In this document: positions 1 to 16,431 of the stretch, piece after piece
Numbering within the stretch: position 1 is the stretch's first letter
Layout: every line of letters starts with the position of its first letter
IMG/VR virus record: IMGVR_UViG_3300031630_000042
Location: 1-20,651 of that record
Direction: 5' to 3' (one strand)
DNA length: 20,651 nucleotides
From: a virus
Translations under genes and position numbers: made by a program
The notes under the pieces: generated by a model
Told to the model about the DNA's origin: nothing
What the model saw: the letters and a program-made list of their open reading frames with translations, nothing else
Database searches by the model: none

Positions 1-617
1 ATGCTATCATGCGTGACACAGGTAGTATCAAAGGTTACGTAGCTGTCAAAGGTAAAGGTAACTTCAGGTACGGTATCTCTGAGGACTACAAGGGTAACCG
101 TAGTAAGACACCTATGGATCCTAAGGTAGTTGAAAGACGAGAGGCAGTTACAGAGTACGCTTGGGAGACTGGATGTTTTAAGTCTGACAACTGTGAAGCA
201 GATGACATTGTATCTATATGGGCACAAGAAGCTTATGAAGCTGGTGAACACTATGTCATAGCACACATTGATAAAGACATTGATATGGTTCCGGGTTGGC
301 ACTATAACTTCAACAAGAAGACTCAGTACTTCATTGATGGTGACGAAGGTCACTACAAGATGTGTATCCAGATGCTGACAGGTGACAGTACAGATAACAT
401 TCATGGACTTAAAGGTATCGGCCCTAAGAAGGCTGAGAAGTTATTAAAAGACGTACCGACAAGCGACATGCTGGAGACCGTTGCCAACGCATGGCGTGAC
501 CATCACCCTCGTGAGTGGAAGGAGAAGCTTGAGACTTGCTGGAACCTACTGTACATGCGCAGGGACTGGAACGGGTTTAAGAGATTAACTATTGAAGAGG
601 TGTTTGCAGATGACTGA
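1..617 (+). CDS. 5'-3' exonuclease (T7 gp6 / T5 FEN-like), 5' end missing
   Basis: The reading frame is already open at the window edge, so the true start lies to the left; the first in-frame ATG (nt 9) is probably internal. About 204 residues are visible against roughly 300 in T7 gp6, so about the first third is missing. The visible part has hallmarks of the 5'-nuclease (FEN/PIN-like) family: an EADDIVSIWA acidic helix, HIDKDIDMVPG, and the metal-binding GDSTDN followed by a helix-hairpin-helix (GLKGIGPKKAEKLL). In T7-like phages this enzyme removes RNA primers and degrades host DNA to feed phage synthesis. The stop overlaps the next gene by 8 nt, showing translational coupling. The family is clear; the exact role in this phage is inferred from its replication-gene neighbours. 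Confidence 0.9.
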   Translation, partial: AIMRDTGSIKGYVAVKGKGNFRYGISEDYKGNRSKTPMDPKVVERREAVTEYAWETGCFKSDNCEADDIVSIWAQEAYEAGEHYVIAHIDKDIDMVPGWHYNFNKKTQYFIDGDEGHYKMCIQMLTGDSTDNIHGLKGIGPKKAEKLLKDVPTSDMLETVANAWRDHHPREWKEKLETCWNLLYMRRDWNGFKRLTIEEVFADD

Positions 618-1098
618 AATAGGACACTGGTCTTATGATGGAGAACCATTCGAGGTTGATGATTACTTCGGATTTGTGTACCTTATAACTGTGTCTGTAC
701 CTGATGGTAACCCTATCAGATACATAGGTAAGAAGCAGTTCCACTCTTATAAGAAGACTAAACGAGACAAGGAGTCTAATTGGAAGAAGTATACCAGTTC
801 CTCTAAGCACATTAATGAACTCATAAAGGGTGGCTCTGAGCTTACCTTCGAGATCATTCAATTGTTTGCAACCAGAGGTGGACTATCAGCAGCAGAATGT
901 AAAGTTCAATGGTACTTAGATGTACTTACGGAGAAATGTCCCGAAGGGATCCCCTTGTACCTTAACAGACAGATAGGTGCAGTTAAATTCATACCTAAAG
1001 AAGCTATATCAGATGAAACTAAAGACAGACTCAACGAAATCTACAGAACCGGAAGAGTACTTATCGAAGCCAAAGGAGAAGAAGCAGCAGAGACTTGA
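610..1098 (+). CDS. GIY-YIG endonuclease, SegE-like
   Basis: This 162-aa protein starts at ATG 610, chosen because GAAGAGG lies 9 nt upstream; an in-frame start at 592 would overlap the exonuclease further. Residues 22-42 read as a GIY-YIG core, FVYLI then RYIGKK, with Y24, Y38 and G40 in the expected places. A WKKYTSS block follows, and E96 in an AAEC helix is the likely metal-binding glutamate. The pattern resembles the SegE-like GIY-YIG proteins of T4-type phages. It lies between the exonuclease and the primase-helicase, in the replication block where T7 carries its unrelated endonuclease I (gp3). It could therefore be a phage DNA-processing nuclease or a free-standing homing endonuclease. 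The sequence does not separate these; a single-domain protein coupled to exo slightly favours a resident role. Confidence 0.72.
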   Translation: MTEIGHWSYDGEPFEVDDYFGFVYLITVSVPDGNPIRYIGKKQFHSYKKTKRDKESNWKKYTSSSKHINELIKGGSELTFEIIQLFATRGGLSAAECKVQWYLDVLTEKCPEGIPLYLNRQIGAVKFIPKEAISDETKDRLNEIYRTGRVLIEAKGEEAAET

Positions 1099-1164: not shown

Positions 1165-2790
1165 ATGAGTGAATCATTCACCAAGCACTATCCATGCTTT
1201 AAATGTGGGTCATCAGATGCAGTAGCACTGTGGTCCAATGGGCGAGGTAAGTGCTTTGCATGTGACACACCTGCATTCTTAGATCAGTATGATGACACAG
1301 TTAAATCAAAGTTTAAACCAAGTAACCGACAACAGGATTATGATATGAGTGGCGAATCACTCCAAGACATCAGTAACTACGACACAGCAGGTGTTCGTGA
1401 ACGTAACCTAACTAAGACAGCTTGTGCTGTATATGATATGAAGGTGGCATATGATGCCTCTGGAGCTATCACCACACACTACTACCCATACACAGTTAAA
1501 GGTAAGGTAGTTGCATGTAAGAAGCGTACACTACCCAAGGAGTTCCGAGTAGTTGGTGAGTTAAAGCATAAGGATCTTGAGTTATTCGGACAGTCTAAGT
1601 TCCAACCGGGTGGCCTGAAGGTGATCATAACTGAAGGTGAGTTAGATGCCATAGCAGTGCAGCAGTCTATGCTTAACAAGTATAAGCGTACGTACCCCGT
1701 GGTATCCCTACCATCCTCAAGTAACATGAAGATCCTTGTGGCTAACAGAGAATGGCTGAGGTCGTTCAATGAAGTCATACTTATGTTCGATCAAGATGAA
1801 GCTGGTGAGAAAGCAGTAGGTGAAGCAGCTAAGATCATTGGCTGGGATAAGACATTGGTAGCCACACTGAGTGCTAATGACCCTTGTGACTCTACGCCTG
1901 ACGAAATCATGTCTGCTGTCTTCAATGCACGTAAGTATACCCCTGCCTCCATCGTACGCGGTGAGGCTATCTGGGATGCATACGTTGCTCGTAAGGACGT
2001 GAAGTCTGTACCATACCCTAAGTGTCTTCAGGGACTCAATGATAAGCTTGACGGTATGCGTAAGGGTGAGATTGTACTGTTCACATCAGGTACTGGCTCA
2101 GGTAAGTCAACAATGATCAAAGAGATTGTACTGGAGATTGAGGAGCAGACTGAGGATAGTATAGGTATGGTGTCTCTTGAGGAGTCCATAGGGGATTCTG
2201 CAGAGAAGTTCATTAAGATGTTTGCACCTAAGGATCCTACTCCTGAGCAAGAACGTAAGGCTTATGAGAAGGTGTTCGGTAATGAAAGGTTAATCCTTCT
2301 GGATCACAATGGGGCTGTCTCTGACTCCAGTCTTATAGACCAGATAGAGAACCTGTGTCTGCTTGGATGCCAGTACATCATCTTAGATCACATCACCATT
2401 GCAGTATCTGAAGGAGCCGGAGGTAAGACTGGCAACGAAGCTATAGATTCTATTATGTCTGACCTGTTAAAGGTTGTTAAGAAGCATAACGTATGGCTTG
2501 GTTTGATCAGTCACCTACGTAAGTCCCAAAGTGGTAAGTCATTTGAAGAGGGTTACCTATCCTCCATCGATGACATAAAGGGTTCAGGCTCGATCAAACA
2601 GATCAGCTTTGATATAATTACATTCTCACGCAACTTAGTGGCAGAAGATGAAGATGAACGGAATACAATTAAACTCAGAGTACTTAAGTCCAGATTTACA
2701 GGACGCACTGGAGACTGTGGTTCAGCATACTATGACACAGGAACAGGAAGACTCAAGGGACAAGAAGACTTCCTCGACTACACTGGATAA
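1165..2790 (+). CDS. T7 gp4-like bifunctional primase-helicase
   Basis: This 541-aa protein starts at ATG 1165, set by the AGGTGGA ribosome binding site 4-5 nt upstream; an in-frame GTG at 1156 falls inside that site and is unlikely. Domains in order: a zinc-binding primase domain with C11-x2-C14 and C30-x2-C33; a TOPRIM fold with E157 (TEGELD) and D209/D211 (FDQDE); then a DnaB/RecA-type helicase from about residue 285. The helicase shows Walker A (SGTGSGKS, K314), a likely catalytic glutamate in SLEES (339-340), Walker B (YIILD, D408), the SISHLRK-like ISHLRK block near 449, and a GSGSIKQISFD segment near 473. A basic RFTGRTG stretch near 510 matches the T7 arginine-finger region. It unwinds the replication fork and lays down primers for the phage DNA polymerase. 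Length and layout match T7 gp4A (566 aa). Confidence 0.95.
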   Translation: MSESFTKHYPCFKCGSSDAVALWSNGRGKCFACDTPAFLDQYDDTVKSKFKPSNRQQDYDMSGESLQDISNYDTAGVRERNLTKTACAVYDMKVAYDASGAITTHYYPYTVKGKVVACKKRTLPKEFRVVGELKHKDLELFGQSKFQPGGLKVIITEGELDAIAVQQSMLNKYKRTYPVVSLPSSSNMKILVANREWLRSFNEVILMFDQDEAGEKAVGEAAKIIGWDKTLVATLSANDPCDSTPDEIMSAVFNARKYTPASIVRGEAIWDAYVARKDVKSVPYPKCLQGLNDKLDGMRKGEIVLFTSGTGSGKSTMIKEIVLEIEEQTEDSIGMVSLEESIGDSAEKFIKMFAPKDPTPEQERKAYEKVFGNERLILLDHNGAVSDSSLIDQIENLCLLGCQYIILDHITIAVSEGAGGKTGNEAIDSIMSDLLKVVKKHNVWLGLISHLRKSQSGKSFEEGYLSSIDDIKGSGSIKQISFDIITFSRNLVAEDEDERNTIKLRVLKSRFTGRTGDCGSAYYDTGTGRLKGQEDFLDYTG

Positions 2791-4894
2791 CTCCGTTGGT
2801 GTGGAGTTGATAACTGCTTACATAAAGGAGAGATGTGAGGGGAATACCTTTAGGGGTAGACCCCCTGAGGGAGCCAGATTGGTGTCTTCTATGATCCCAT
2901 ATGGTTACACGTACGAGAAGCTAACTGTAAGGGCCGTAGCAGGGGCTGTGGCAGCTTATCAGAAGTCCCGAAGGTCATCATCAGCACCCTTTAAACTAAC
3001 CGTTACATCGACTGTGATAGGCTTACAGGTGCTGTCTGCTTTAGGCGTACTAAACACTAACCATCAGGAGATCTTAGCTGTTGGTGATCTATACTTAGAA
3101 GCACTACTTCAACTGGGTTATATACACATTGAAAGAGAGTACTCAGGGTACAGAGCACCTTACATAATTCAACTAATGGACACATGGTCGGAGCTTGGAG
3201 ATCTCCCACCTGAGTACGAGAGGGAGACACTGATTGGTACCTCCTTCACACCACCTAAGGACATAACATCACTACGTAATGAGTTCACCAAACGTCCATA
3301 CATAAAGCGCATGAGTTCAGAGGAGGACTTTAAGCAGCTTATAGGAGCACCATTTATCACTGCTCTTAACAAGCTACAACAAACACCTTGGAGACTTAAC
3401 AACACACTAGCCAAAGCCTTAGAGACTAACCTCGGATTGTTCATAGATCTTGAGGACCAGTCAATCAAAGCTAAGTCAAAGGCTATTGAGATGAAGTTTG
3501 TCATTGCAAAGATACATGCGGTAGGGTCTCACGACTTCTACCAAATGGTTGAGTGTGACTACCGAGGTCGTGTGTACTACACTGAACCCTTCTTGAACTT
3601 CCAAGGGTCTGATGTATCTAAAGGACTCTTTGAGTTTGCAGATTCTAAGGCTATGGACACTGCAGGGTACCGATGGTTATGTATACACACAGCTTGTTCC
3701 TATAACCAATCATATGAACTAGAGGAACTACCAACATGGGTAACAGCGGACTATCGAACCTATCTGCAAGAAGAAGGGCTCTCTACCATATCAGTAGACA
3801 AGATGACCCTAAAGGACAGAGAACTGTGGACCCTAAACAACCTCGACTGGATCAACCAATTAGCGGATGGCTTGAGCTTCAGAACAGAAGCAGAAAAGCC
3901 CGTTAGTTTCCTTGCATGTTGCTTGGACGTCAGTGGGTATAACAAAGCTAGGGCTAATCGTACTGTACATATGAGTCGATTACCTATACCTGTTGATGGG
4001 AGTAACAATGGATGGCAACATCTGGCAGCTATATCTAAAGACAAACAAGCTGGTGAACTGGTTTCTCTCGTACCTAGTGAGATACAGAAGGACTTCTATG
4101 TCCAAGTTGCCAAGCGTCTGATAGACAGGATGCCTGACTGGTTTAATGAACGTAAGATCCCAATGAAAGCTATCCGTAAAGGTATAGCAAAGCGTGGCTC
4201 TATGACAAGGGCATACTCAGCAGGTCAGAAGAAGATTGGTGCTAATATGTACTATGACTGCAAGGTAGAAGGCTATGACAAGAAGTACAATATCACTGAA
4301 GATGACTGTACCCCTCTGTCAAAGCAACTTATACTTGCTATCAACGACACCTGCGTAGGCCCCTTAAAGACCATGAAGTTTATTCAGAAGATGACAGACC
4401 ACATACTCTCAACAGGTGAGACATGTACACAGTGGACAACTCCCTCGGGATTCCCAGTGTTATATGAGGTGTGGCGTCAGAAGAACATCACAGTACGTAG
4501 TACCATACGTGGACTCGGTCAGATAGGTCACAGCATTAAGGTACCATACATCACACCAAGTGGTGACTTGATACCATGCAGGAGATCCTTTGCATCTGGC
4601 TGTTCACCTAACTTCGTTCACTCAATGGACGCAGCTCACATGGCTAAAGTTATTCAGAGCTTTAATGGAGACTTCGGTGCTATACATGATTCATTCTCGA
4701 CTCATGCATGTGATGTGAATAAACTAATAGACCATACCAAGTGGCAGTTTGCTATGATATACAACAGTGAGAACTTCTTCACCGTCATAGAGAACATGTT
4801 ACTGGAGACCCGAGAGGGTTATACACTTAAACAACCAGAGCTGGGAACCTTAGATATATCTGAGATCCTGTCGTCTGATTACTTCTTTTGTTAA
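2732..4894 (+). CDS. T7-like single-subunit DNA-directed RNA polymerase
   Basis: This is a clear member of the T7 RNA polymerase family. Numbered from ATG 2732 (720 aa): DYRGRVYY at 276-283 followed by LNFQGSDVSKG (the T7 DWRGRVY...FNPQGNDMTKG block); motif A VDGSNNGWQH with D422; motif B AKRGSMTRAY with K487 and Y495; motif C AIHDSF with D653. All catalytic residues are present. T7 has Gly after the motif B Tyr; here it is Ser. T7 R627 corresponds to K483. The start is uncertain: ATG 2648 would add 28 residues but overlap the helicase gene by 143 nt, while GTG 2801 sits just after its stop; none has a good ribosome binding site. T7-like N-domain similarity begins near nt 2800 (ELITAYIKE). 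It probably transcribes middle and late phage genes. Its place after the replication genes, not at the early left end, differs from T7. Confidence 0.95.
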   Translation: MTQEQEDSRDKKTSSTTLDNSVGVELITAYIKERCEGNTFRGRPPEGARLVSSMIPYGYTYEKLTVRAVAGAVAAYQKSRRSSSAPFKLTVTSTVIGLQVLSALGVLNTNHQEILAVGDLYLEALLQLGYIHIEREYSGYRAPYIIQLMDTWSELGDLPPEYERETLIGTSFTPPKDITSLRNEFTKRPYIKRMSSEEDFKQLIGAPFITALNKLQQTPWRLNNTLAKALETNLGLFIDLEDQSIKAKSKAIEMKFVIAKIHAVGSHDFYQMVECDYRGRVYYTEPFLNFQGSDVSKGLFEFADSKAMDTAGYRWLCIHTACSYNQSYELEELPTWVTADYRTYLQEEGLSTISVDKMTLKDRELWTLNNLDWINQLADGLSFRTEAEKPVSFLACCLDVSGYNKARANRTVHMSRLPIPVDGSNNGWQHLAAISKDKQAGELVSLVPSEIQKDFYVQVAKRLIDRMPDWFNERKIPMKAIRKGIAKRGSMTRAYSAGQKKIGANMYYDCKVEGYDKKYNITEDDCTPLSKQLILAINDTCVGPLKTMKFIQKMTDHILSTGETCTQWTTPSGFPVLYEVWRQKNITVRSTIRGLGQIGHSIKVPYITPSGDLIPCRRSFASGCSPNFVHSMDAAHMAKVIQSFNGDFGAIHDSFSTHACDVNKLIDHTKWQFAMIYNSENFFTVIENMLLETREGYTLKQPELGTLDISEILSSDYFFC

Positions 4895-5687: not shown

Positions 5688-5720
5688 ACCCCCAAGTATA
5701 CGTAATGTATACCTGAGGGT
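5688..5720 (-). terminator. imperfect hairpin, probable terminator of leftward late operon
   Basis: ACCC (5688-5691) pairs with GGGT (5717-5720), CA (5693-5694) with TG (5714-5715), and GTATAC (5696-5701) with GTATAC (5707-5712), around a 5-nt loop with two internal mismatches. On the - strand the hairpin is followed by TATTTTATT, which suits intrinsic termination. It lies about 65 nt past the stop of the 1215-aa gene. The weak, interrupted U tract makes it less certain than its neighbour. Confidence 0.6.
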
Positions 5721-5783: not shown

Positions 5784-8700
5784 TTAGTTAAAGTCAAATG
5801 ACTTGAGTGCATCCATATGATACTGGAACACTGGGTTGTTACCTAGTATCTTACTAAGCTTAGCCCTGCGATCCTTAGCCTCGTTGGCTACATTGTACAT
5901 ACTCTGGAGGCTGTACTTCATACTAGGTGTGAGTACTCTAAACAACTCACGAGCCTGTAGGTTAGTAACCATGTGACCCTGTGTTGGTAAGTTACGCTTC
6001 TCCTTCTTAGACAGAGCCTCAAATCGCTTAGAGGTATCTGTGAGGATACTTAAGACCATCTTCTGCTCAGCACTTAGTGGATCAGCGTTGCCACCACGAG
6101 GTAACAACCAGTGTGCTTTCTCAATCATGAACTGAGCTTGAGCAGCGTTACTTACAAGACCCGTAGGGTTCTTATTAGCCATCGTATTAAGCTTAGTGGC
6201 ACCACGCTGGTATGCGTTGTTAGCACCTTCAGCCATCTCTGTCATCAAGTCATACTTAAGTGTCACATCAACCCAAGCTTTGTTAACAGTATCAACAAGA
6301 GGTTTGAAAGAACCAAGGTCACCAATGATAGCATCATAAATAGTAGTTACATATGGAGTCTCTGCACCAGAGTCCCTCTGCAACTTCCTATAGTTCTCAC
6401 CCGACAATGCGTTAGCAATGGCTGCACCATCGTTACTGATGATAGCCTGAGGTAGTATGCTTTGTGCAGCTTGGTAGCCACCGTCAGCAGTCTTACCTAG
6501 TGCACCCATCTCTGGGCTGGAGGCTTGATACTTGCTCCTTGTGATACGAGTGTTACCAAGTACAGATGGGTTCGCCTTACTAGGATCACCGTACACGTAC
6601 TCACCAACAGGCTTCACATACTTCTCACGGATCTGAGAGATAACAGGAGCACCCTCTTGTGGAACGTAGTCTACTGTGTTGATAGATGTCCAAGTACCAG
6701 TTGGTTTCTTGAATCGTAATGGTTCATCAGCAAGCATAGCAAGCTCAGTCACACCCTTAAGGCTCTTACTGAATGTATTAACAGCAGAACCCAGAGTTTC
6801 CTCAAGGTTATGTGCAAGTATCACATGAAGCATACGAGACATCTTAGGTACACCACCATCCATATCAGCAGCCATATCAGTCAACCCTTTGGAAGCAGTA
6901 ACTGTATTCATCATAGCTGACAACATACTCTTGATCGATTGACCATAAGGTAATGTCATAAGAGGTGGCTTCAGGAACTCATCAGGCTGTGCAATAGCAA
7001 GTGCAAGTATGTCCTCGATCTGAGGTAAGTCTTCGATAGTCATACCGAACTCATTCCTGAACTCCATAGAGTCCACAAGATGTGGTAGTGTCTTGTTCAT
7101 ACTGTCAGCAAGCACAGCACGTAGGTTACCTTCGACTCCATCGTACATAGCAAGAACCTTTGAGGGATCCTGACGTAGTACTCCAATGCGGTACATGATA
7201 TCAGTTAAGCCTAGCTGAGTTGTCATACTGGCAAGTCCGTTAGATATACCATCCACTTCAACAGGTCTCATAGAAGAAGCAAAGCTTCCACCACGTTCAA
7301 CTGCATCCATGTAACGACCAAGCTCAATAGCTTCTTCAATCAAGTTAATGGTTTCATTGGGGTGCTCAAAGGCTTCTTCCATAAACCGAGTAACTTCAGA
7401 GTCAGCTTTAAACTCACCCAGCGTAGCCATAACACCACCCACACCTTTGATCTGGTTGTCGGCTTGTTCCATCTGCAATAGGGCATTGGCTGTAGCATCA
7501 ACATTGTAGTTGTCAAGGATACCCTTAAGCTTACGACCAACACTTGCGATAGACATGAGCTTGTCATCTTTCATAGCTATGCGCTTACGCATGTTACGAA
7601 TCATCTGCTCAGGTACAAGGTTGTGTTCAGCAAACAAGTGTGAACCCCAAGTTACAATCATAGCGTACTCAGCATTAGAGTTGCTTCCGGGTTTGATTTG
7701 ATACTGAGTACCACTCCCGTACAACTGTCTGGCAAGCTTATGAGTCTGCATGTTCATCTTCTGTGCGCTATAGCCCAGACGAGAAGTACCAGTCTGTATA
7801 TAGTTGGTGAAGCTGATTGGATCATTCCTGAACTCTGCAATATCTTGCAACATCTCAAGTGCCTGCGCAGCCTTACGCTCATACATCCTCTTCTTCCACG
7901 AGGGTGTTGCAGCTTCAGCAGCAAAGGATCTTAGGATCTCTGCTTTCTCTGTCAACTGTGCAACCTTAGGGTGGTTTGGTTCAAGACCTGAGGCCTCTAG
8001 CATAAGTATGTCAGCTCGGTAGATAGCATTGCGTGATGCATTGTTAATCTTATCAGCAGCTTTCTGACCTATGCCAAGCATCTCAGCAGCCTTACCTCTG
8101 ACTTTGATAACACCATCAGTCATCGTCATCTCAGCAGCGGCTTTCATACCCATAAGGCTCATGAATAAACCAGACTTGAGTCGTGCAGCAGAGATCACAT
8201 GGCGAACCTTAGATACGTTCTCACGTACCTCAACCTCTGGGGTACGCTTACCACGTTGCTTAGGGTCCTCATAGTGCTTACCAGTCTTCTCCTTAGTCTT
8301 TGAGTACTGAGTTGTAGGTTGTGGGTTGTTGGTTACTTGAGGTCTTGCATACACCTTAGGTGGCATGAGATCCTTCTTAGTGTTCTCCAACATCTTACGA
8401 CCAAGTGGAGTGATAAGGTACTCACCACGAGTCTTACCATTGCCAGTCTGTACTTGAACAGATTGATACATCATAGGGTTACCCAATGAGTATATCTGCT
8501 TAGCCCACATACCTAACTTCTCATAAGCTTCCTTGGTCAACTCGTTAGTTGGGTCGAGGTGTGCATCCGGCACAGTGTCCATACCTTGGTCACGTACTTG
8601 TTGCAGCTTCAACCATTCCTCTGACAGTGTACGACCAATCTGTGCCTCAGAGACACCAGACTGTAGATCAGCAGGTGATAGTCCGGCTATATCTGAGATG

Positions 8701-9431
8701 TCATCCTTACTGAAGTTATCAATCAAGTCCTGAGGAATCATAGATTCATCTTCAGTCTGCTTGCTTAGTATAGATTCCATCAAAGTCATGCCAAGTATCT
8801 GGAGATCCGGAAGGACTTCCATTACCCTGTTGTCACCTGTGAATCTGACAGCATTCATATGCCCAAAGAGTTCCGCAGAGTTAAGTGGCTTCTTATGTTC
8901 CTTGTCAACGTAAACACGCATGGCTAGTTCATCATCAAGTGCAGAGACATCCTGAGCAGGTGCACTTCCAACACCCATCATGCTCTTAACTGATTCCATC
9001 TTCTTAGCTTCATCAAAAGGAATACTAAGGGAGTCTGTCCTTTGCAGTCGCTTGACAGCCCATATAAGGTAAGGGGCTGCATCAGGTCCAGCAATGTTAT
9101 AAATATCCTTAGGTCCGAAGTCTCCAAGGCTGGTGCCATGTAGCTGCTGCAATGCCTGAGAAGCTTCTATGTCCTTCTGTTGCTCCTCCTTGGCAGCAGA
9201 GACCTCAGCAGTATCTGCTTCAGCCTCCATAGCTATCTGGCCTACTGTGGGTGTCACATCTAATGATGTGGTGTAAGGGTCCCTAGCTTCAGCTTCACGT
9301 AGAACTGGTAGCTGTGCACCATCGTTAGGTAAGTTCAACCCATCCATGACTACACTGAGTACTTCTGCATCACTCCCTCGTGATCCAACCTCGGGTACTG
9401 ATGTTCCTGCTACAATATTACTCTTAGCCAT
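5784..9431 (-). CDS. candidate virion RNA polymerase (N4 vRNAP/T7 superfamily), 1215 aa
   Basis: ATG 9431 has AGGAGGAG just upstream. Beyond its size it looks like a plain internal virion protein, but it carries the single-subunit RNA polymerase motifs in order. T547-G-T-S-R551 followed by MNMQTHKLAR (559-568) parallels T7 DWRGR...FNPQGNDMTK. Motif A is EVDGISNG with D727. Motif B is KPPLMTLPYG with K821 and Y829, matching T7 K631 to Y639 (KRSVMTLAYG). Motif C is TTIYDAIIGD with D1033. The D727 to K821 distance is 94 residues, as in T7 (D537 to K631). Deviations are Tyr for the motif C His and Asp for T7 R627. Residues 1-540 and the tail after 1060 are unassigned. As the last gene of the virion operon, it would be packaged and injected, as N4 vRNAP is. 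The fold call is motif-based; virion location and activity are inferred. Alternative: a structural protein derived from a polymerase. Confidence 0.75.
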   Translation of the reverse strand: MAKSNIVAGTSVPEVGSRGSDAEVLSVVMDGLNLPNDGAQLPVLREAEARDPYTTSLDVTPTVGQIAMEAEADTAEVSAAKEEQQKDIEASQALQQLHGTSLGDFGPKDIYNIAGPDAAPYLIWAVKRLQRTDSLSIPFDEAKKMESVKSMMGVGSAPAQDVSALDDELAMRVYVDKEHKKPLNSAELFGHMNAVRFTGDNRVMEVLPDLQILGMTLMESILSKQTEDESMIPQDLIDNFSKDDISDIAGLSPADLQSGVSEAQIGRTLSEEWLKLQQVRDQGMDTVPDAHLDPTNELTKEAYEKLGMWAKQIYSLGNPMMYQSVQVQTGNGKTRGEYLITPLGRKMLENTKKDLMPPKVYARPQVTNNPQPTTQYSKTKEKTGKHYEDPKQRGKRTPEVEVRENVSKVRHVISAARLKSGLFMSLMGMKAAAEMTMTDGVIKVRGKAAEMLGIGQKAADKINNASRNAIYRADILMLEASGLEPNHPKVAQLTEKAEILRSFAAEAATPSWKKRMYERKAAQALEMLQDIAEFRNDPISFTNYIQTGTSRLGYSAQKMNMQTHKLARQLYGSGTQYQIKPGSNSNAEYAMIVTWGSHLFAEHNLVPEQMIRNMRKRIAMKDDKLMSIASVGRKLKGILDNYNVDATANALLQMEQADNQIKGVGGVMATLGEFKADSEVTRFMEEAFEHPNETINLIEEAIELGRYMDAVERGGSFASSMRPVEVDGISNGLASMTTQLGLTDIMYRIGVLRQDPSKVLAMYDGVEGNLRAVLADSMNKTLPHLVDSMEFRNEFGMTIEDLPQIEDILALAIAQPDEFLKPPLMTLPYGQSIKSMLSAMMNTVTASKGLTDMAADMDGGVPKMSRMLHVILAHNLEETLGSAVNTFSKSLKGVTELAMLADEPLRFKKPTGTWTSINTVDYVPQEGAPVISQIREKYVKPVGEYVYGDPSKANPSVLGNTRITRSKYQASSPEMGALGKTADGGYQAAQSILPQAIISNDGAAIANALSGENYRKLQRDSGAETPYVTTIYDAIIGDLGSFKPLVDTVNKAWVDVTLKYDLMTEMAEGANNAYQRGATKLNTMANKNPTGLVSNAAQAQFMIEKAHWLLPRGGNADPLSAEQKMVLSILTDTSKRFEALSKKEKRNLPTQGHMVTNLQARELFRVLTPSMKYSLQSMYNVANEAKDRRAKLSKILGNNPVFQYHMDALKSFDFN

Positions 9432-9434
9432 TGG

Positions 9435-12400
9435 CTACTCCTCCTTTCCCCACTGATAATTTATAATCCTATGCTTGTACGGTGCAATGAAGGGTAAGCT
9501 TCCGTAGAAGTTCTTCATAAACTTATCACCATCACTCTCTATTGCCCCAGATATCATTCCATACCCACGACCAACAGTACCTGTAGCTGCAGCTTCACCT
9601 GCAATGTTGTCCCAGATGAACTCACCCGGACCATGACTGCTACTACCATACAGAGGGAAGAGTAAGTTACTCCCGATTACCCTCTCTGTGGTTCCTAATA
9701 ACCCACTTGAGTACACAGCTCTTTGAATCTTCTGTGCGTCAGTTAGGTAGGGTGACGATTCACCATACTTAAGTTCATCTTTGATACCTTGGGAGATGAA
9801 TGCTAATGCAAGCATACTTCCCATAGCTGCAAAGGTTCCATAAGTTAAGCCCTTAGAACTCTTACCTTTCACCTGATCCCACAACATAGGCAGCTGGTTA
9901 GCTGTGAATGTAGATGTGAAACCATTGAACTGGGTAAGTAATGCAAAGCGAGGGTCACTGTAGAACAGCGGTCTGTTTAGTGCATTAGGTAGGGGTATTG
10001 CTTGGTTGACAAAGTTAGCAGCTCCGTTAAGGAACTCACGTTTGTATATGATGGATTCATCAGCTGTCAATGTTCCACCAGCCTTAAGCTTGTTAGCTAT
10101 TGGGCCTATGTTGTGTAGCGATATACCAAGTTCTCTCAGCATATGTTTAGCTTCAGAGACACCCACGGTATCCGGCTGACCCATCTTAGATTCAATCAAG
10201 TCAAGCTTCTCTACGAGGAAGTCGTTAAAGAACGACAGTCGCATCATACGGTGCATGTCTTGTTGATCGTGTAGGAAGTTAGCCTTGAAGAATGCATCAG
10301 TCACACCACGAGTCATCTCGTTAGTTTCCTGTACACCTGTTGTAGTTGCTGCTCCGGTCTCTTGAGACTTAAAGCCAGTCTCCTTCAGCATAGTCTTCAT
10401 GTTTGTATAGTACACATAGCGAGGATCTGCCTCACCTCGTGACCTCACACTTGCTATCTTCTTATCAAGGAATGTTTCAAGACTCTCACGAGGCTTTGCA
10501 ACCCTTGCCGTTACAGCTAGGTTACGCATCCATGCACCAACAGCACTACCAAAGAGGTAACCCTGTGTTGCTGAGTTCTGTACAAGAACATCTCTTGAGA
10601 CTCCCATAGGAATCATAGCCATCTCTGGCATAGAAGAGAATGCAGCGTTAGCCAAACCCTGAAGTGTTGTCAACAGTGTCAAGTACTTCTGACCCTGCTT
10701 AACAGTCTCATTGTTTATCCGCTTGTAGTTACCAGACTCTGCATTGAGTACGTTACGTAGATCATATGCGATCTTCTGTAACATCTTCTCAGCAGCCTCA
10801 GGAGACATAGTCTCAAGTAGTTCAGTACGTACATCACCCATCATCTTATTCAGATACTTGGAGTCCTTACCTATGAACTTACGATGTGCTTGGAACCTTG
10901 CAGCCTCACGAGAAGCATCACCCATGTTCTTGAAGATGTTCTGCTCTAAGAACTGATCGAACTCAGGTCTATCTGAGATGTGCATCTGACGTATCTTATG
11001 AGCTGATGGAGAGACTCCACCTTTTGTGATATCAAATGCTTCACCAAGTGTAGCAACACCTTCAGTATTCACGATAGCCTCAGTAAGGTTAACAGCATCA
11101 GACTGGGACATACCATATGAGGATACCAATGCTTTAACAAAGGCATCCTTGTTGCTGGCTATGTACTCTGTCCTGAAACCCTTATGACGATAAGCCCAGT
11201 TAGCAAGACGCTTAGTTGGTGTCTCATTGTCGTAAGCCTTAGCCTTGTTGTTATCATTAAGGAGTCTCTCACTTAACGTGGTGAACTCAGTGTGTAACTT
11301 AAGGAGTGCTTCTTTATTAGCTTTAACTTCAGGTGATGCATTGTTCCAATCAAACGGCTTGTTAGCCTCAGTGGCTGGCTCAATGACTTCCCTGTAGAAC
11401 TTAGTGGTTAATGTACTGACATAGTCTGAACGACCCAGAGAACTCTTACCTAAAGGTACATCAAAGGAAGCTTCAATAGACTCCTGATCCCTCAGTATAG
11501 AGTTGTAGGCAGCTACTGTTAGTTGCTGTTCCTGTATCATACCCGGGCCACTGAATACCTTATGACGTACTGAGCCTAGCATGTCAGCTATCTTGACAAG
11601 AGTCTTTGACTTACCCTTGGCTGCTGAAAATGCCTGTGCCAGTGAACCCTTAAGGGCTACCATAGGATTCATTGTGAATGCTTTGATGTGTTCCAGTGTA
11701 GTACTCGGGGCTTCGTGTGCGTCTGCAAGAGCACCCATAACATCTTCTGGTTCTGATGTGTATGTGAATCCAGACCCAACCTTATCACCACCGTGGTTCT
11801 CTGCAGCAAGTTCATCTGTTGATCTCACATACCCGAACTCAGCTTCCTCTTCCTTACGGAAGTGTGTGTTGACGTTGTCGAATCTATTGTCACTGTCACT
11901 CTCAAGATCAGCAGCAGCTTTCCAATCACCTATCTGGTAAGCAACTCCGGGAGCAGCGAAGCCAGCACCCATAAGACCACCAGCTACAATAGCATTAGTC
12001 ATACGGTTCTGGATCTCGTCATAATCCCATTCTTTCTCTGAGCCTATAACAGATGCAGTGTACTCGGTTAGTTCCTGCATAGCTTCCGTGACACCCTCAC
12101 CTCCGGTAGCTTTTGCAAGACCCTTTACACTCTCTCTGAACAGATGACCCTTAAGGATCTGGTTAGCACCAAAGGCTTTGGCATCATCAACATAAGTCAA
12201 CAGTTGCTTCTTTGATACCTGAAGTAACTTCTTTGATGCTGCCTTTCGGGCTGCTTCAGGACCTAGGTGTCTGAACTCGTCAGACTTAGCTATGGCTTTG
12301 ATAGCCTCCTCTCGACCCTCTTTAGTGATCATCATAGAGGGGCTGACAAGTCCTTTAAGACCTACCTTATCTAAGTAAGTCATAGCAGCACCAGCAACGA

Positions 12401-13436
12401 TAGCAACACCTAAGTTCTTATCTTCGATGTTACCTTCCATAGAATCCAATGTCATACCTGTGTACATAGACAGGGGTAGTGCCATAGATGTTCCGTAGGT
12501 TACAGGGGCTGCAGCCATACCAATCATAGTTGCACCCATGAATGGGATAGAGGAGCCCAGCATACCCTTCATACCTGTGGTGACTTCATCAAACTTCATC
12601 CAGTTAATCTCAGTTACATCCATCTGAACAGTTGGAAGCCCTTCGATGTACTGTTGGTTAACTGAAGCAGAAGCAGCAAACTCTGCCTCCATTATCTCAG
12701 CTCCAAACCTATTAGATAAGGCCTGACCAAATGTGTTAAGACTCTTAGCCATGTTCGCATAGCCAGTGTCAAAGCCAGTACCAAAGGGAGTCCTTGAGCG
12801 TCCAGCGTAGTCAGCCCCTTTGTTCTTTGATTTGATAGACATGTACAGGTCTGGGTTAGCAGCATACTCAGCTGCATCAAAAGCTATAAGCTTCTGCATT
12901 GGTAACCCACCGTACTGGTCTGTCTCGTTCTCGTAGATAGCTGCTCGTGCTTCATCGTAAGCAGTCCACTTAGTACTGCCAGCATCAGCTGCCATACCAT
13001 ACAGTGAATTGTTTACATCAGCGTCTGTGTTGTACTTTGTCAGTTGAGATACACCAGTGCGTATCAGTGTGTCTACAAAGGAGTGACCATCAGCATTCTG
13101 AAGGTCTCCTATAGGACGACCCCACTTACCTATTTCACCAGTCTTAACTACACGATTGAATCCACCCTTCTGAGCAAGACTCCAATTATATGCTGTAGCT
13201 GCGTCAGCTCCTGCCTCACCGGCTTGGTACTGACCATTGATAATCTTAGCTGTCTCCCTTGAATCCAAACCACGCAGTCGTATGCTCTCACCTGTGGCTG
13301 AGTCCTTCAGTGTGTCACCGTCAATGAATGATAGTGTGGTTCCTTCGATAGCTAATGGGTTTACTTGGGGGCCTTGTGAAGCCTCTTCTTCTACTGCGAG
13401 TGCGTTACTCAAGTCTAAAACAAGACCTTGTCCCAT
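9435..13436 (-). CDS. giant internal virion (ejection) protein with N-terminal SNase nuclease domain, 1333 aa
   Basis: ATG 13436 follows TAGGAG by 6 nt. Residues about 30-135 form a staphylococcal-nuclease (thermonuclease) domain: FIDGDT with D39/D41, IRLRGLDSRET with R53, D58 and E61, and GKWGRPIG with R107. These correspond to S. aureus nuclease D19/D21, R35, D40, E43 and R87, so the active site looks intact. The rest resembles large phage ejection proteins. Hydrophobic, Gly/Ala-rich stretches lie near 292-330, 343-355 and 482-502, with an EGVTEAMQELTEY segment between. Another hydrophobic segment lies near 1198-1217 (GTFAAMGSMLALAFISQG), after an LTQFNGF block. By position it is the counterpart of T7 gp15/gp16, which cross the envelope during DNA entry. 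No secretion signal is seen. It is followed after 3 nt by the candidate virion polymerase gene. The nuclease call is firm; virion location is inferred. Confidence 0.8.
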   Translation of the reverse strand: MGQGLVLDLSNALAVEEEASQGPQVNPLAIEGTTLSFIDGDTLKDSATGESIRLRGLDSRETAKIINGQYQAGEAGADAATAYNWSLAQKGGFNRVVKTGEIGKWGRPIGDLQNADGHSFVDTLIRTGVSQLTKYNTDADVNNSLYGMAADAGSTKWTAYDEARAAIYENETDQYGGLPMQKLIAFDAAEYAANPDLYMSIKSKNKGADYAGRSRTPFGTGFDTGYANMAKSLNTFGQALSNRFGAEIMEAEFAASASVNQQYIEGLPTVQMDVTEINWMKFDEVTTGMKGMLGSSIPFMGATMIGMAAAPVTYGTSMALPLSMYTGMTLDSMEGNIEDKNLGVAIVAGAAMTYLDKVGLKGLVSPSMMITKEGREEAIKAIAKSDEFRHLGPEAARKAASKKLLQVSKKQLLTYVDDAKAFGANQILKGHLFRESVKGLAKATGGEGVTEAMQELTEYTASVIGSEKEWDYDEIQNRMTNAIVAGGLMGAGFAAPGVAYQIGDWKAAADLESDSDNRFDNVNTHFRKEEEAEFGYVRSTDELAAENHGGDKVGSGFTYTSEPEDVMGALADAHEAPSTTLEHIKAFTMNPMVALKGSLAQAFSAAKGKSKTLVKIADMLGSVRHKVFSGPGMIQEQQLTVAAYNSILRDQESIEASFDVPLGKSSLGRSDYVSTLTTKFYREVIEPATEANKPFDWNNASPEVKANKEALLKLHTEFTTLSERLLNDNNKAKAYDNETPTKRLANWAYRHKGFRTEYIASNKDAFVKALVSSYGMSQSDAVNLTEAIVNTEGVATLGEAFDITKGGVSPSAHKIRQMHISDRPEFDQFLEQNIFKNMGDASREAARFQAHRKFIGKDSKYLNKMMGDVRTELLETMSPEAAEKMLQKIAYDLRNVLNAESGNYKRINNETVKQGQKYLTLLTTLQGLANAAFSSMPEMAMIPMGVSRDVLVQNSATQGYLFGSAVGAWMRNLAVTARVAKPRESLETFLDKKIASVRSRGEADPRYVYYTNMKTMLKETGFKSQETGAATTTGVQETNEMTRGVTDAFFKANFLHDQQDMHRMMRLSFFNDFLVEKLDLIESKMGQPDTVGVSEAKHMLRELGISLHNIGPIANKLKAGGTLTADESIIYKREFLNGAANFVNQAIPLPNALNRPLFYSDPRFALLTQFNGFTSTFTANQLPMLWDQVKGKSSKGLTYGTFAAMGSMLALAFISQGIKDELKYGESSPYLTDAQKIQRAVYSSGLLGTTERVIGSNLLFPLYGSSSHGPGEFIWDNIAGEAAATGTVGRGYGMISGAIESDGDKFMKNFYGSLPFIAPYKHRIINYQWGKEE

Positions 13437-13455
13437 AGTGTTCTCCTAATAATAA

Positions 13456-15198
13456 TTACTCTTTAAACTTCTTGTTGTACAATGTATGAAACTTTGCGTT
13501 AACTGCTGGGTTGTTTATACCAAGGTACTTAGGGTCTGTATCAGAGCCACTACTAGCCAACCATGCATTCATGGCGTTAGTATTAGACTCCTCACCTACC
13601 TTAGTCCAGTGAGCTCTCGCCTCCGGATCTTGCATCACAGTGTCTTTAAAGATCTTAGATAACTTCTGAAGAGTCTTAGTTGGTGTGATCAATGTACGGA
13701 TCTTCTCTGCACTGTGCTTACCTTCAGTGGCAACCTTAACAAGACCACTGTTGATGTTGTCAACTTGCTTCATAAGCTTAGACACAGCAGCGTTAGGTAG
13801 TTCGTAACCCTCTTCCATAGTCTCAATACCATCAGCATTCCAAGTAGCCTTACCAAATACAAACTTAGGTACTCCACCTTCAGTGGTGAGGTCAGCCTTA
13901 AGTTGATCAGCTCGGATAGCATCAGCCATACCAGCGGTAATGGAACCACTGAACTTGTCAGTTGGGTTCTTGACAGTGTTCATCATGTACTTACGTACTG
14001 AGTTACCAAGTGCAGTCCTATACTGTGGTGTACTTGTGTCAACACCATTAGCTCTAGCACTCCTAGTGGCTACTGCGTATGCTTCTTGGATAGTACTACC
14101 ATCCCCAAACAAAGCTTGTGCTGTCTGGCGCTGCTCAATAGAGTAGATCTCAGTGTTCTCAGATATATTACTTAACACATCACTCGATGCACCATTCATG
14201 TAGTCTATGTTCTCTAGATCAATAGCATCATAGGTCATGTGCCTAGCCTTATCGTAGTTCTCTAGTCCGTAATCTTTTGCATTAACAATATCACCACCTG
14301 ATGCTGATTGGAACTTACCACTCTTAGACATGTAGCCAGCAACTGGTTGCTTAGCCTTAGGGTCCCACATGGTTACAGTCTTAGACATATCAAGTGCATC
14401 ATTAGCTGACTTCTTATCAGCAGCCTTAGCAGTTGCTGTCTGAGTCAATAGGTCTTTCTTATCCTGATTAGCCCAGCCTTGAAGTAGTACACTACCTGAA
14501 CCACTACCTGAGTATCCCATAAGTCTGGCACCAGTGTAGTATATGAGGGCTTGTTGGATAGCCTTGTCTTCAAACAGACCACCTAGGAATCCAGCAGCAC
14601 TTTCCATAACAGTCTTAGGGTCAGTCTCTTCATTACTGAGGAGTAAGTCAACTGCAATATCACCAGCCTTCTTCACCTCCGCTTGTTGCTCTGCAGGTAC
14701 TGCATCAAACACCGCAGGATCAATAGTGGATGCTGTGTCTAGTATATTCTTCACAGCAGGCTGTTTGTCTGTCAGACCCTTAATTGCAGCTTGCTTCTTT
14801 AGCATAGCATCTGCGTACTCACGTTGATCCCGAGTTCCCGGGTCATAGTCGGGTACATCTGTGCGTGGGACACCTGTGTATCCTGCTTCGATGTTTGCAC
14901 CTATATCTACGGCTTTACCAACACCCACGTCTACAGCATGACTACCAGCATCAAGGAGAGTACCTCCAACGTCTTGAGTAAAACCAACGATATCCTTAGC
15001 TACAGCACCGAGAGACTCAGCCTTTCCGGGCATCTCTTCTGCACTAAGTGGTTTATCATCCATGAGCTGGCCCCATAGGCTTGGACGTGGTTGCTGAGGT
15101 ATGTCCCCCATCTGTGACGCCACCTGTTGAGGTACTGGAGCTACAGGTGCTGGACCGTTGTAGTCCATACCAAATAGTTTCTTTAATTCATTAAACAT
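13456..15198 (-). CDS. putative internal virion protein, 580 aa
   Basis: The start ATG 15198 shares its A with the previous stop (TAATG) and has AGGAGG just upstream. The N-terminal 60 residues are rich in Pro, Gln and Ala. Residues about 60-105 are Gly/Ala/Val-rich (amphipathic, GKAVDIGANIEAGYTGV). A moderately hydrophobic segment with IYYTGARLMGYSGSG follows near 220-235, and the C-terminal half is helical and charged. I recognise no enzyme motif. Its position between the lysozyme/181-aa pair and the two giant proteins matches T7 core proteins such as gp15, which form the ejection tunnel. The role is inferred from context and from general resemblance to phage internal proteins. Confidence 0.65.
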   Translation of the reverse strand: MFNELKKLFGMDYNGPAPVAPVPQQVASQMGDIPQQPRPSLWGQLMDDKPLSAEEMPGKAESLGAVAKDIVGFTQDVGGTLLDAGSHAVDVGVGKAVDIGANIEAGYTGVPRTDVPDYDPGTRDQREYADAMLKKQAAIKGLTDKQPAVKNILDTASTIDPAVFDAVPAEQQAEVKKAGDIAVDLLLSNEETDPKTVMESAAGFLGGLFEDKAIQQALIYYTGARLMGYSGSGSGSVLLQGWANQDKKDLLTQTATAKAADKKSANDALDMSKTVTMWDPKAKQPVAGYMSKSGKFQSASGGDIVNAKDYGLENYDKARHMTYDAIDLENIDYMNGASSDVLSNISENTEIYSIEQRQTAQALFGDGSTIQEAYAVATRSARANGVDTSTPQYRTALGNSVRKYMMNTVKNPTDKFSGSITAGMADAIRADQLKADLTTEGGVPKFVFGKATWNADGIETMEEGYELPNAAVSKLMKQVDNINSGLVKVATEGKHSAEKIRTLITPTKTLQKLSKIFKDTVMQDPEARAHWTKVGEESNTNAMNAWLASSGSDTDPKYLGINNPAVNAKFHTLYNKKFKE

Positions 15199-15743
15199 TA
15201 CTTACCTCCTGAGGGCGCTGGACTACCACCACCTGTTGGTGCTGTAGGTGAACCACCCTTACCACCAGTGGCTCCTGCTTGTGCACCGGGACCTTGGTTA
15301 GGTAACCCGATAACACCACCACTACCAGACCTCACTGGGGCACCTGAGGAATCCCTGAGGATGTTACCTTGTGGGGCTGGGACACCTTGAACTACAGGTC
15401 GTGAAGTAGGTCCTGTTGTTGGGACTGTTAGGTCTACAAATGCAGGATCAAAGGGAGCTATCACACCACTTGTGGGGGATGATGCTGGGATACCCACGGT
15501 TGGTGGCATGAAAGGGGTTGCTGCAGGTTCTTTACCATCCAGTGCAACTGCTTGTTGGTACATATCTGGTGGGGTTTGCACCGTAGGTGGTCTACTATCT
15601 AGTCCAAATGCCAGTGCCTTACGTTCTAGTGCTGCCTCAGGGGATACCTGTGGATTCCAAGATAAGACCTCACCTTGTGGTGCTGTGGCATATGGGGAGC
15701 TCTTAGCCCCTGCGAAGTGCTCTTCAATTTCTGTCTTTGTCAT
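15198..15743 (-). CDS. Pro/Gly-rich, probably disordered virion protein, 181 aa
   Basis: ATG 15743 has GGAG 9 nt upstream, formed by the last codons of the lysozyme gene. From about residue 45 on, the protein is dominated by Pro, Gly, Ser, Thr and Ala, ending in GGS/PAP-type repeats (GGSPTAPTGGGSPAPSGGK), so it is probably intrinsically disordered. No family is recognised. It sits inside the presumed ejection cassette and could be a flexible linker or packing protein that must unfold to leave the head. Its last three codons, Gly-Gly-Lys, also form the ribosome binding site of the next gene. Confidence 0.65.
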   Translation of the reverse strand: MTKTEIEEHFAGAKSSPYATAPQGEVLSWNPQVSPEAALERKALAFGLDSRPPTVQTPPDMYQQAVALDGKEPAATPFMPPTVGIPASSPTSGVIAPFDPAFVDLTVPTTGPTSRPVVQGVPAPQGNILRDSSGAPVRSGSGGVIGLPNQGPGAQAGATGGKGGSPTAPTGGGSPAPSGGK

Positions 15744-15747
15744 CGTC

Positions 15748-16431
15748 TTAATCTCCGAATATTGTATCCCATAAGGATTTAGCTGTATCTTTATGTGCCT
15801 TAGGTATCTTCTCTGTCACTTCCTTCCGTGGCTTACCACTCTTATCACCACCAAAGAGATCATTAATGAAGTCATTAACAGGACTGAGAAACCCAGCATC
15901 AGCTTGAGGTGGGGCCTCCTGCGCTTGTTGTGGTACTTCTTGTACCTGCTTAGGTACTGCAGCCAGCTCTACACCATAAGCCCTCATGGCATCTGAAGTC
16001 TCCTTCATGCGTCCAGCTACACCGCTACCTGATTCAACTGCTAGTCTGTATTCTTCATTGTTCAAGAACTCATCAGCAGCTGCACCCCATTGTCCGGAGT
16101 TGGCTAGTTTTAATGTTGCAGGGCTACCACTTAGGCCACCCCTGTATGTAGAGTCAAGCAATCGTAATTGAAGTGCCTGAGGTAGGGTGTCATACGCTGG
16201 TACGATACCCCTAGTCTTTTGTTCAAAGGAACTAACCACTTGATCAAAGGGCATACCTGAGTACTCACCTGTCTGTCCAAAGCCAGTAGTTGCGACACCC
16301 TTAGTGTCATCATAGGTCTCTGGGTTGTACCCTTCAACACTAGCTATGTGGGCTTCACTTGCGGATAATGGACGGCCCAGTAACTGCTGTGCCATAGCCA
16401 CGGCCTGTGCCCCATGTAATACTGTACTCAT
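15748..16431 (-). CDS. GH24 (T4-type) lysozyme, virion-associated by context
   Basis: ATG 16431 has AGGAGG 5 nt upstream. Residues 33-52 hold the GH24 catalytic signature: E33-x8-D42-x5-T48, in exact register with T4 lysozyme E11, D20 and T26 (EGYNPETYDDT then TTGFGQ). T4 H31 is replaced by Gln. The lysozyme domain runs to about residue 150, then comes a Pro/Gln-rich linker (about 155-178) and a charged tail of about 45 residues. The enzyme cuts the MurNAc-GlcNAc bond of peptidoglycan. It lies among presumed ejection proteins with no holin or spanin beside it, so it probably acts at entry, opening the wall like the gp16 transglycosylase of T7. A lysis endolysin role is the alternative. Confidence 0.85.
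   Translation of the reverse strand: MSTVLHGAQAVAMAQQLLGRPLSASEAHIASVEGYNPETYDDTKGVATTGFGQTGEYSGMPFDQVVSSFEQKTRGIVPAYDTLPQALQLRLLDSTYRGGLSGSPATLKLANSGQWGAAADEFLNNEEYRLAVESGSGVAGRMKETSDAMRAYGVELAAVPKQVQEVPQQAQEAPPQADAGFLSPVNDFINDLFGGDKSGKPRKEVTEKIPKAHKDTAKSLWDTIFGD

Follow-up and report, generated by a model that had tools for sequence, protein, structure and literature searches.

A compact, so far unannotated likely relative of the N4 virion RNA polymerase beside a T7-like RNA polymerase in an uncultivated virus of bacteria

The DNA analyzed here (the window) is the entire IMG/VR virus record IMGVR_UViG_3300031630_000042, 20,651 bases in length; the outermost gene at each end is cut, and the genome is therefore incomplete. 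The last gene of a leftward virion block is an ORF at 5784-9431 on the minus strand, which begins with ATG and encodes a protein of 1215 aa, and facing it across three small ORFs is the gene of a T7-like RNA polymerase (RNAP). The principal features of the locus are:

2648..4894, plus strand: second, T7-like single-chain RNAP (748 aa, 14 Cys; PF00940, E 4.5e-53), convergent to the 1215-aa gene
5688..5720, minus strand: terminator-like hairpin, directly 3' of the stop codon of the 1215-aa gene
5784..9431, minus strand: candidate compact virion RNAP (vRNAP) gene (1215 aa, no cysteine; catalytic domain at residues ~400-1100)
9435..13436, minus strand: candidate ejection protein (1333 aa, no cysteine; match to PHROG "virion structural protein")
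13456..15198, minus strand: candidate ejection or internal virion protein (580 aa, no cysteine; inferred from its position in the block)
15748..16431, minus strand: lysozyme/endolysin-like protein of the same block (227 aa, no cysteine; Pfam and PHROGs searches)

Two terminator-like hairpins were found in the whole stretch, where 0.7 were expected. Residues ~52-152 of the 1333-aa protein resemble staphylococcal nuclease (FIDGDTL...RLRGLDSRET...KWGR), as does the N-terminal stretch of its homologues in contigs L009 and L015; the Pfam matches of the three proteins fall below the cut-off (E 0.29, 0.078 and 0.026). A small ORF at 592-1098 (plus strand) has by eye a GIY-YIG-type look (YFGFVYLITV...RYIGKKQ). 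In contig L105, the gene lying two places from the compact vRNAP gene (13237-15381, minus strand) encodes a 715-aa cysteine-free protein with an SLT transglycosylase domain (E 5e-17), compatible with a cell-wall role in ejection.

The first-pass annotation, made from sequence alone, had proposed the 1215-aa protein as a single-subunit RNAP of the T7/N4 type, and as the second RNAP of the virus, from T547, R551, D727, K821, Y829 and D1033. All six residues are at the positions claimed, the identification is supported by BLAST, profile and fold comparisons and by conservation, and the T7-like RNAP at 2648-4894 bears out the count of two. The motif blocks and their N4 counterparts are:

7728..7793, minus strand: TxxxR-type block, residues 547-568 (TGTSR551 ... 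NMQTHK565LAR568), corresponding in the profile alignment to N4 T-X2-G-R424 ... NPQSAK437LVR440
7233..7262, minus strand: motif A, residues 724-733 (VE725VD727GISNGL), corresponding to N4 E557-A-D559 and fitting the signature ExDGxxxG (PMC10654107)
6939..6974, minus strand: motif B, residues 820-831 (LK821PPLMTLPY829GQ), corresponding to N4 K670..Y678
6306..6443, minus strand: DGA block and motif C, residues 997-1042 (IISNDGA ... TIYD1033AIIGDLGSF), corresponding to N4 D951

The claimed equality of the A-to-B distance with that of T7 also held, D727 and K821 being 94 residues apart as are D537 and K631 of T7, versus 111 residues in N4 (D559-K670). The T547xxxR551 motif held only in part: the window reads T-G-T-S-R against the T-X2-G-R of N4, and R551 is conserved while the position of T547 is occupied by T, K, R, L, Q or S across the family. 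Two elements had been missed, namely E725, the counterpart of N4 E557, which completes the vRNAP signature ExDGxxxG (EVDGISNG, residues 725-732), and the block at residues 997-1042 comprising DGA and motif C.

Multisequence alignment of the family (19 rows) revealed that K821, P823, M825, T826, G830 and D1033 are invariant, that Y829 is retained in all rows save one with F, and that R551 and R568 are both kept in the 15 of 15 rows that cover them. E725, D727 and N731-G732 are invariant as well; some rows were fetched by a motif A pattern and carry these residues by selection, and only the window sequence and those from L004, L007, L008, L009, L015 and L016 are free of this bias, which weakens the statements on motif A alone. 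Homologues with as little as ~18% identity, none selected for these residues, keep D1033, K821 and, where covered, R551. The first-pass annotation had named homologues lacking both Asp residues as grounds for refutation, and none such appeared: D1033 is kept, and so is D727, with the reservation that part of the set was chosen by motif A. The compact homologue of contig L073 (687-4364, minus strand) reads KSPIMTSIFG in motif B, with Phe in place of the usual Tyr; the same change in T7 RNAP (Y639F) weakens discrimination against deoxynucleotides.

Searches of Pfam, PHROGs, NCBIfam and PDB sequences gave no meaningful match to the 1215-aa protein. Among 50,697 phage records, tblastn gave only two matches, each within a Vibrio phage gene annotated as "virion-encapsulated RNA polymerase" (E 7e-3), and the matches cover residues 707-842, that is, motifs A to B. 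In BLASTP against the Vibrio phage vRNAP (E 3e-8, the search space being one protein), EVDGISNG aligns with EVDGITNG, and KPPLMTLPYG with KNPLMTFIYG. The IMG/VR relatives share 49-100% identity. Scanning with EVDGI[ST]NG, a pattern for motif A, yielded 57 stretches; apart from a few chance matches, these belong either to long vRNAP-like ORFs (~1,900-4,200 aa, some of them truncated at the ends of contigs) or to further compact ORFs of ~1,210-1,280 aa when complete. A distant homologue matches the PHROG "RNA polymerase" (E 7e-4). No relative of the 1215-aa protein was found in 84,980 bacterial and archaeal genomes, and a search for an isolate representing any of three other compact branches found none.

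Profile-profile comparison shows that the compact protein is homologous to the catalytic domain of the N4 vRNAP and is closer to schitovirus vRNAPs than to T7-like RNAPs. Against an alignment of nine schitovirus vRNAPs, hhalign returned a probability of 91.4% (E 9e-7) with the four nearest sequences, which had not been picked by motif, of 95.0% (E 4e-8) with eight sequences, and of 97.5% (E 5e-12) with all 19, the last alignment spanning TxxxR to motif C; the reversed-target control gave 0.2%. Each of these E-values refers to a single comparison and not to the search of a database. TxxxR, A, B and C are in register between the two groups, with the N4-to-window pairings R424-R551, K437-K565, R440-R568, E557-E725, D559-D727, K670-K821, Y678-Y829 and D951-D1033, and only the spacing inside the first block differs, by one residue. 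The N4 sequence was taken from EF056009 and the catalytic residues were located in fragment 998-2103; E557, K437 and R440 are discussed in PMC4496689, and the remaining numbers are those which we take to be the N4 catalytic residues, each confirmed as the right letter in the right motif. Identity to N4-type vRNAPs in the profile alignment is ~15%, and the family profile was not significant against the single N4 mini-vRNAP sequence, the nine-vRNAP alignment being needed. T7-like RNAPs scored weakly against the compact family (2-3%), though the motifs aligned; giant vRNAPs score 95.9% against T7-like RNAPs, and compact against giant vRNAPs 97.5%. In a tree built from the catalytic region, 16 compact sequences are separated from 29 others with an SH-aLRT support of 97%, setting compact vRNAPs apart from giant ones, subject to the quick method used, an unknown root, and the long branches of L073 and several others. 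We place the 1215-aa protein among the single-subunit RNAPs of the N4 vRNAP lineage, its activity being inferred from homology, fold and conserved residues.

A right-hand polymerase fold of the T7/mitochondrial type is predicted for the protein by AlphaFold2 (residues 61-1215, 19-row alignment, no templates; pTM 0.66), with pLDDT mostly 75-95 in the catalytic region and poor in the N-terminal third. The top 50 Foldseek matches against the PDB are all single-subunit RNAPs (T7, mitochondrial, N4), among them yeast mitochondrial RNAP (8c5u, E 1e-12), T7 RNAP (3e2e, E 3e-11) and N4 mini-vRNAP (3c46, E 5e-11; 2po4, E 4e-10), and the viral models matched by fold include named schitovirus vRNAPs. The unrelated fold that would have refuted the initial proposal thus did not occur. 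Since the TM-scores reach only 0.3-0.5 and the rmsd is large, the claim is one of shared fold, not of close structure; the proposed gathering of the motif residues in one active site is supported by the profile alignment to N4 and not by model coordinates. Modeling of the gp33 family of phage CRP-7 (seven sequences) did not succeed, which indicates that the pipeline has no default tendency to yield an RNAP fold.

Packaging in the virion, as claimed by the first-pass annotation, is supported indirectly by gene position, ejection-protein neighbors and lack of cysteine. Cysteine is absent from the 1215-aa protein, eight homologues, CRP-7 gp33 and N4 vRNAP (0 of 3500), and from the neighboring 1333-, 580-, 227-, 181- and 169-aa proteins; the T7-like RNAP, by contrast, contains 14 cysteines and the primase 11. 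At a background frequency of 0.8%, the chance of zero Cys in 1215 residues is ~7e-5, with the caveat that virion proteins of these phages are generally cysteine-poor; lack of cysteine has been used before as an indicator of a vRNAP (PMC10747016). In N4, too, the vRNAP gene (gp50) comes last in the late block and adjoins ejection proteins (EF056009; PMC12633501), as the 1215-aa gene does in the window. Packaging is probable within the overall reading, on gene order and cysteine lack and without virion proteomics.

The T7-like RNAP of the window (PF00940) retains the T7 catalytic residues. A PF00940 RNAP is present in 21/21 contigs with a compact vRNAP, and the two genes are convergent neighbors wherever both could be placed; N4 and other phages likewise encode more than one RNAP (PMC4496689). 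In a 39-kb relative the T7-like RNAP gene lies >20 kb from the divergent region preceding the early genes, unlike in phage T7, where the RNAP gene starts at base 3171, an arrangement that fits, without proving, another polymerase acting first.

N4-type triloop hairpin promoters were not above simple shuffles in whole contigs, and none (3-base loop) was identified in related early regions, where short triloop hairpins occur without a recognized common element; the 39-kb relative has a cluster of 6-bp triloop hairpins near its divergent region, without an obvious shared sequence. The count of sigma-70-like promoters in the early region of the 39-kb relative equals the shuffled expectation and argues neither way. 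Two copies of the element TGTTCCTATAAGGTACTTAAA lie in the divergent intergenic region of L099, a close relative (5279, 5360), and a version with two changes is likewise present twice in L102, a distant relative (2162, 2213); TGTTCCTATAAGGTACTTAAA could be a phage promoter of either RNAP. The hairpin GAGCCC[TTY]GGGCTC has three copies in the compact-vRNAP contig L103 (9036, 9439, 18462).

Taken as a whole, the reading that we favor as likely is a compact vRNAP packaged with ejection proteins and acting early, of which the packaging, ejection, early transcription and division of labor are inferred. The 1215-aa protein would be made late and packaged together with the ejection proteins encoded beside it, which are likewise free of cysteine. 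It would then be threaded through the tail, either along with the DNA or before it, and would refold in the host and transcribe the first genes. These transcripts would lead to the T7-like RNAP of the phage, whose gene follows that of the primase and closes the replication block; this RNAP in turn would transcribe middle and/or late genes. The start of transcription without the host enzyme, as first proposed, is plausible and likewise inferred. A bolder reading is that podoviruses of a separate clade, not part of Schitoviridae, package a minimal vRNAP devoid of the N4 accessory domains, that infection runs on two phage single-subunit RNAPs, the injected one acting early and the T7-like one later, without need of host RNAP, and that separate neighboring proteins have taken over what the end domains do for ejection in N4; it is compatible with the evidence but less likely than not.

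Three rival explanations were weighed. The protein may be an active single-subunit RNAP that is not packaged but serves as a late cytoplasmic enzyme with a regulatory or replication-priming role, a view to which the want of direct proof of packaging and the multiple RNAPs of N4 and other phages (PMC4496689) lend some room. It is unlikely, in that the gene is the last of its block and adjoins large candidate ejection proteins, like N4 gp50, the protein and its neighbors lack cysteine where the T7-like RNAP has 14, and the T7-like RNAP already supplies a cytoplasmic phage enzyme. Very unlikely, in turn, is a degenerate polymerase retained as a structural or ejection-channel protein; its distance in sequence from known RNAPs and its place inside the structural block are compatible with this, but R551, K821, D1033 and, with the single Y-to-F exception, Y829 are kept down to ~18% identity, which is not expected from a structural role alone.

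Chance motif matches in an unrelated virion protein can all but be excluded. Short motifs do arise by chance and there was no library match, but BLAST, profile-profile and fold comparisons agree independently and the reversed control was clean; the profile comparison with schitovirus vRNAPs and the Foldseek matches led us to reject this reading.

The preferred reading, a compact N4-type vRNAP, bears on how such enzymes are sought. In the literature, such vRNAPs count as a hallmark of N4-like phages (PMC7650795). An IMG/VR census of N4-like vRNAPs applied a 2,500-aa minimum and then required ExDGxxxG, the length cut reportedly removing nearly all T7-like enzymes (PMC10654107). The 1215-aa protein has the signature but is under 2,500 aa, so the cut would exclude the compact clade; a length cut can thus hide a real vRNAP branch. 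No description of a compact N4-type vRNAP was found in the literature searched, from which most subscription journals were absent, and the protein is likely a new, so far unannotated relative of the N4 vRNAP, with its injection inferred. A naturally compact enzyme would inform two questions in N4, how the virion RNAP traverses the tail and what purpose its huge end domains serve, the latter because the catalytic part apparently works without them, its activity being inferred.

Compared with known systems, the window protein shares with N4 gp50/mini-vRNAP and the Schitoviridae vRNAPs a TxxxR-type block with its conserved arginine, motif A with E-x-D, and motifs B and C in register, and with the N4 vRNAP the lack of cysteine and the last place in the late block. 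It differs in length (1215 versus 3500 aa), being too short for the long N- and C-terminal domains of N4, and lies outside the range of reference-genome vRNAPs (2,842-3,820 aa; PMC10654107). The companion RNAP is one T7-like chain in place of the N4 gp15/gp16 heterodimer, a departure from the heterodimeric RNAPII hallmark of Schitoviridae. The portals of two compact-vRNAP contigs, one from a close relative, belong to phrog_1216, which also holds the N4 portal, and in L101, a more distant relative, the major head protein belongs to a PHROG other than that of N4. With T7 RNAP and other PF00940 RNAPs the protein shares superfamily fold, motif order and the A-to-B spacing of 94, but it has no PF00940 match and only the weak profile score given above.

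The closest cultivated phage by T7-like RNAP (37.5% identity) is Roseobacter phage CRP-7 (MK613349), whose host strain is a marine Rhodobacteraceae and which was described as without significant synteny to known isolates (PMC6918029). It has the same order of exonuclease, primase, T7-like RNAP and a convergent gene for the 1235-aa cysteine-free gp33, annotated as hypothetical, which adjoins a homologue of the 1333-aa neighbor. As a cultivated homologue gp33 was rejected and remains a lead only, hhalign being not significant and the gp33-family AlphaFold2 model having a pLDDT of 34; by eye, gp33 (L089 17859-21566, minus strand) has motif-like sequences in the right order, EADARQSNAG (A), RGLVVAGLYG (B) and IHDALITG (C).

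For podophage StenR_269 (PMC10747016), for which a new family was suggested, a single-subunit vRNAP has also been proposed; in the passages bearing on it, that proposal draws on the size of the protein, its helix content and its absence of cysteine, and homology or fold is not invoked. In Thermus phage P23-45 (PMC10770324), a virion RNAP transcribes the pre-early genes, including the gene of a second, non-virion RNAP; this tape-measure-fused enzyme is homologous to cellular RNAPs and of unrelated fold. The present virus would constitute a second case of paired virion and non-virion phage RNAPs after P23-45, with the virion location inferred and with both enzymes here of the single-subunit type.
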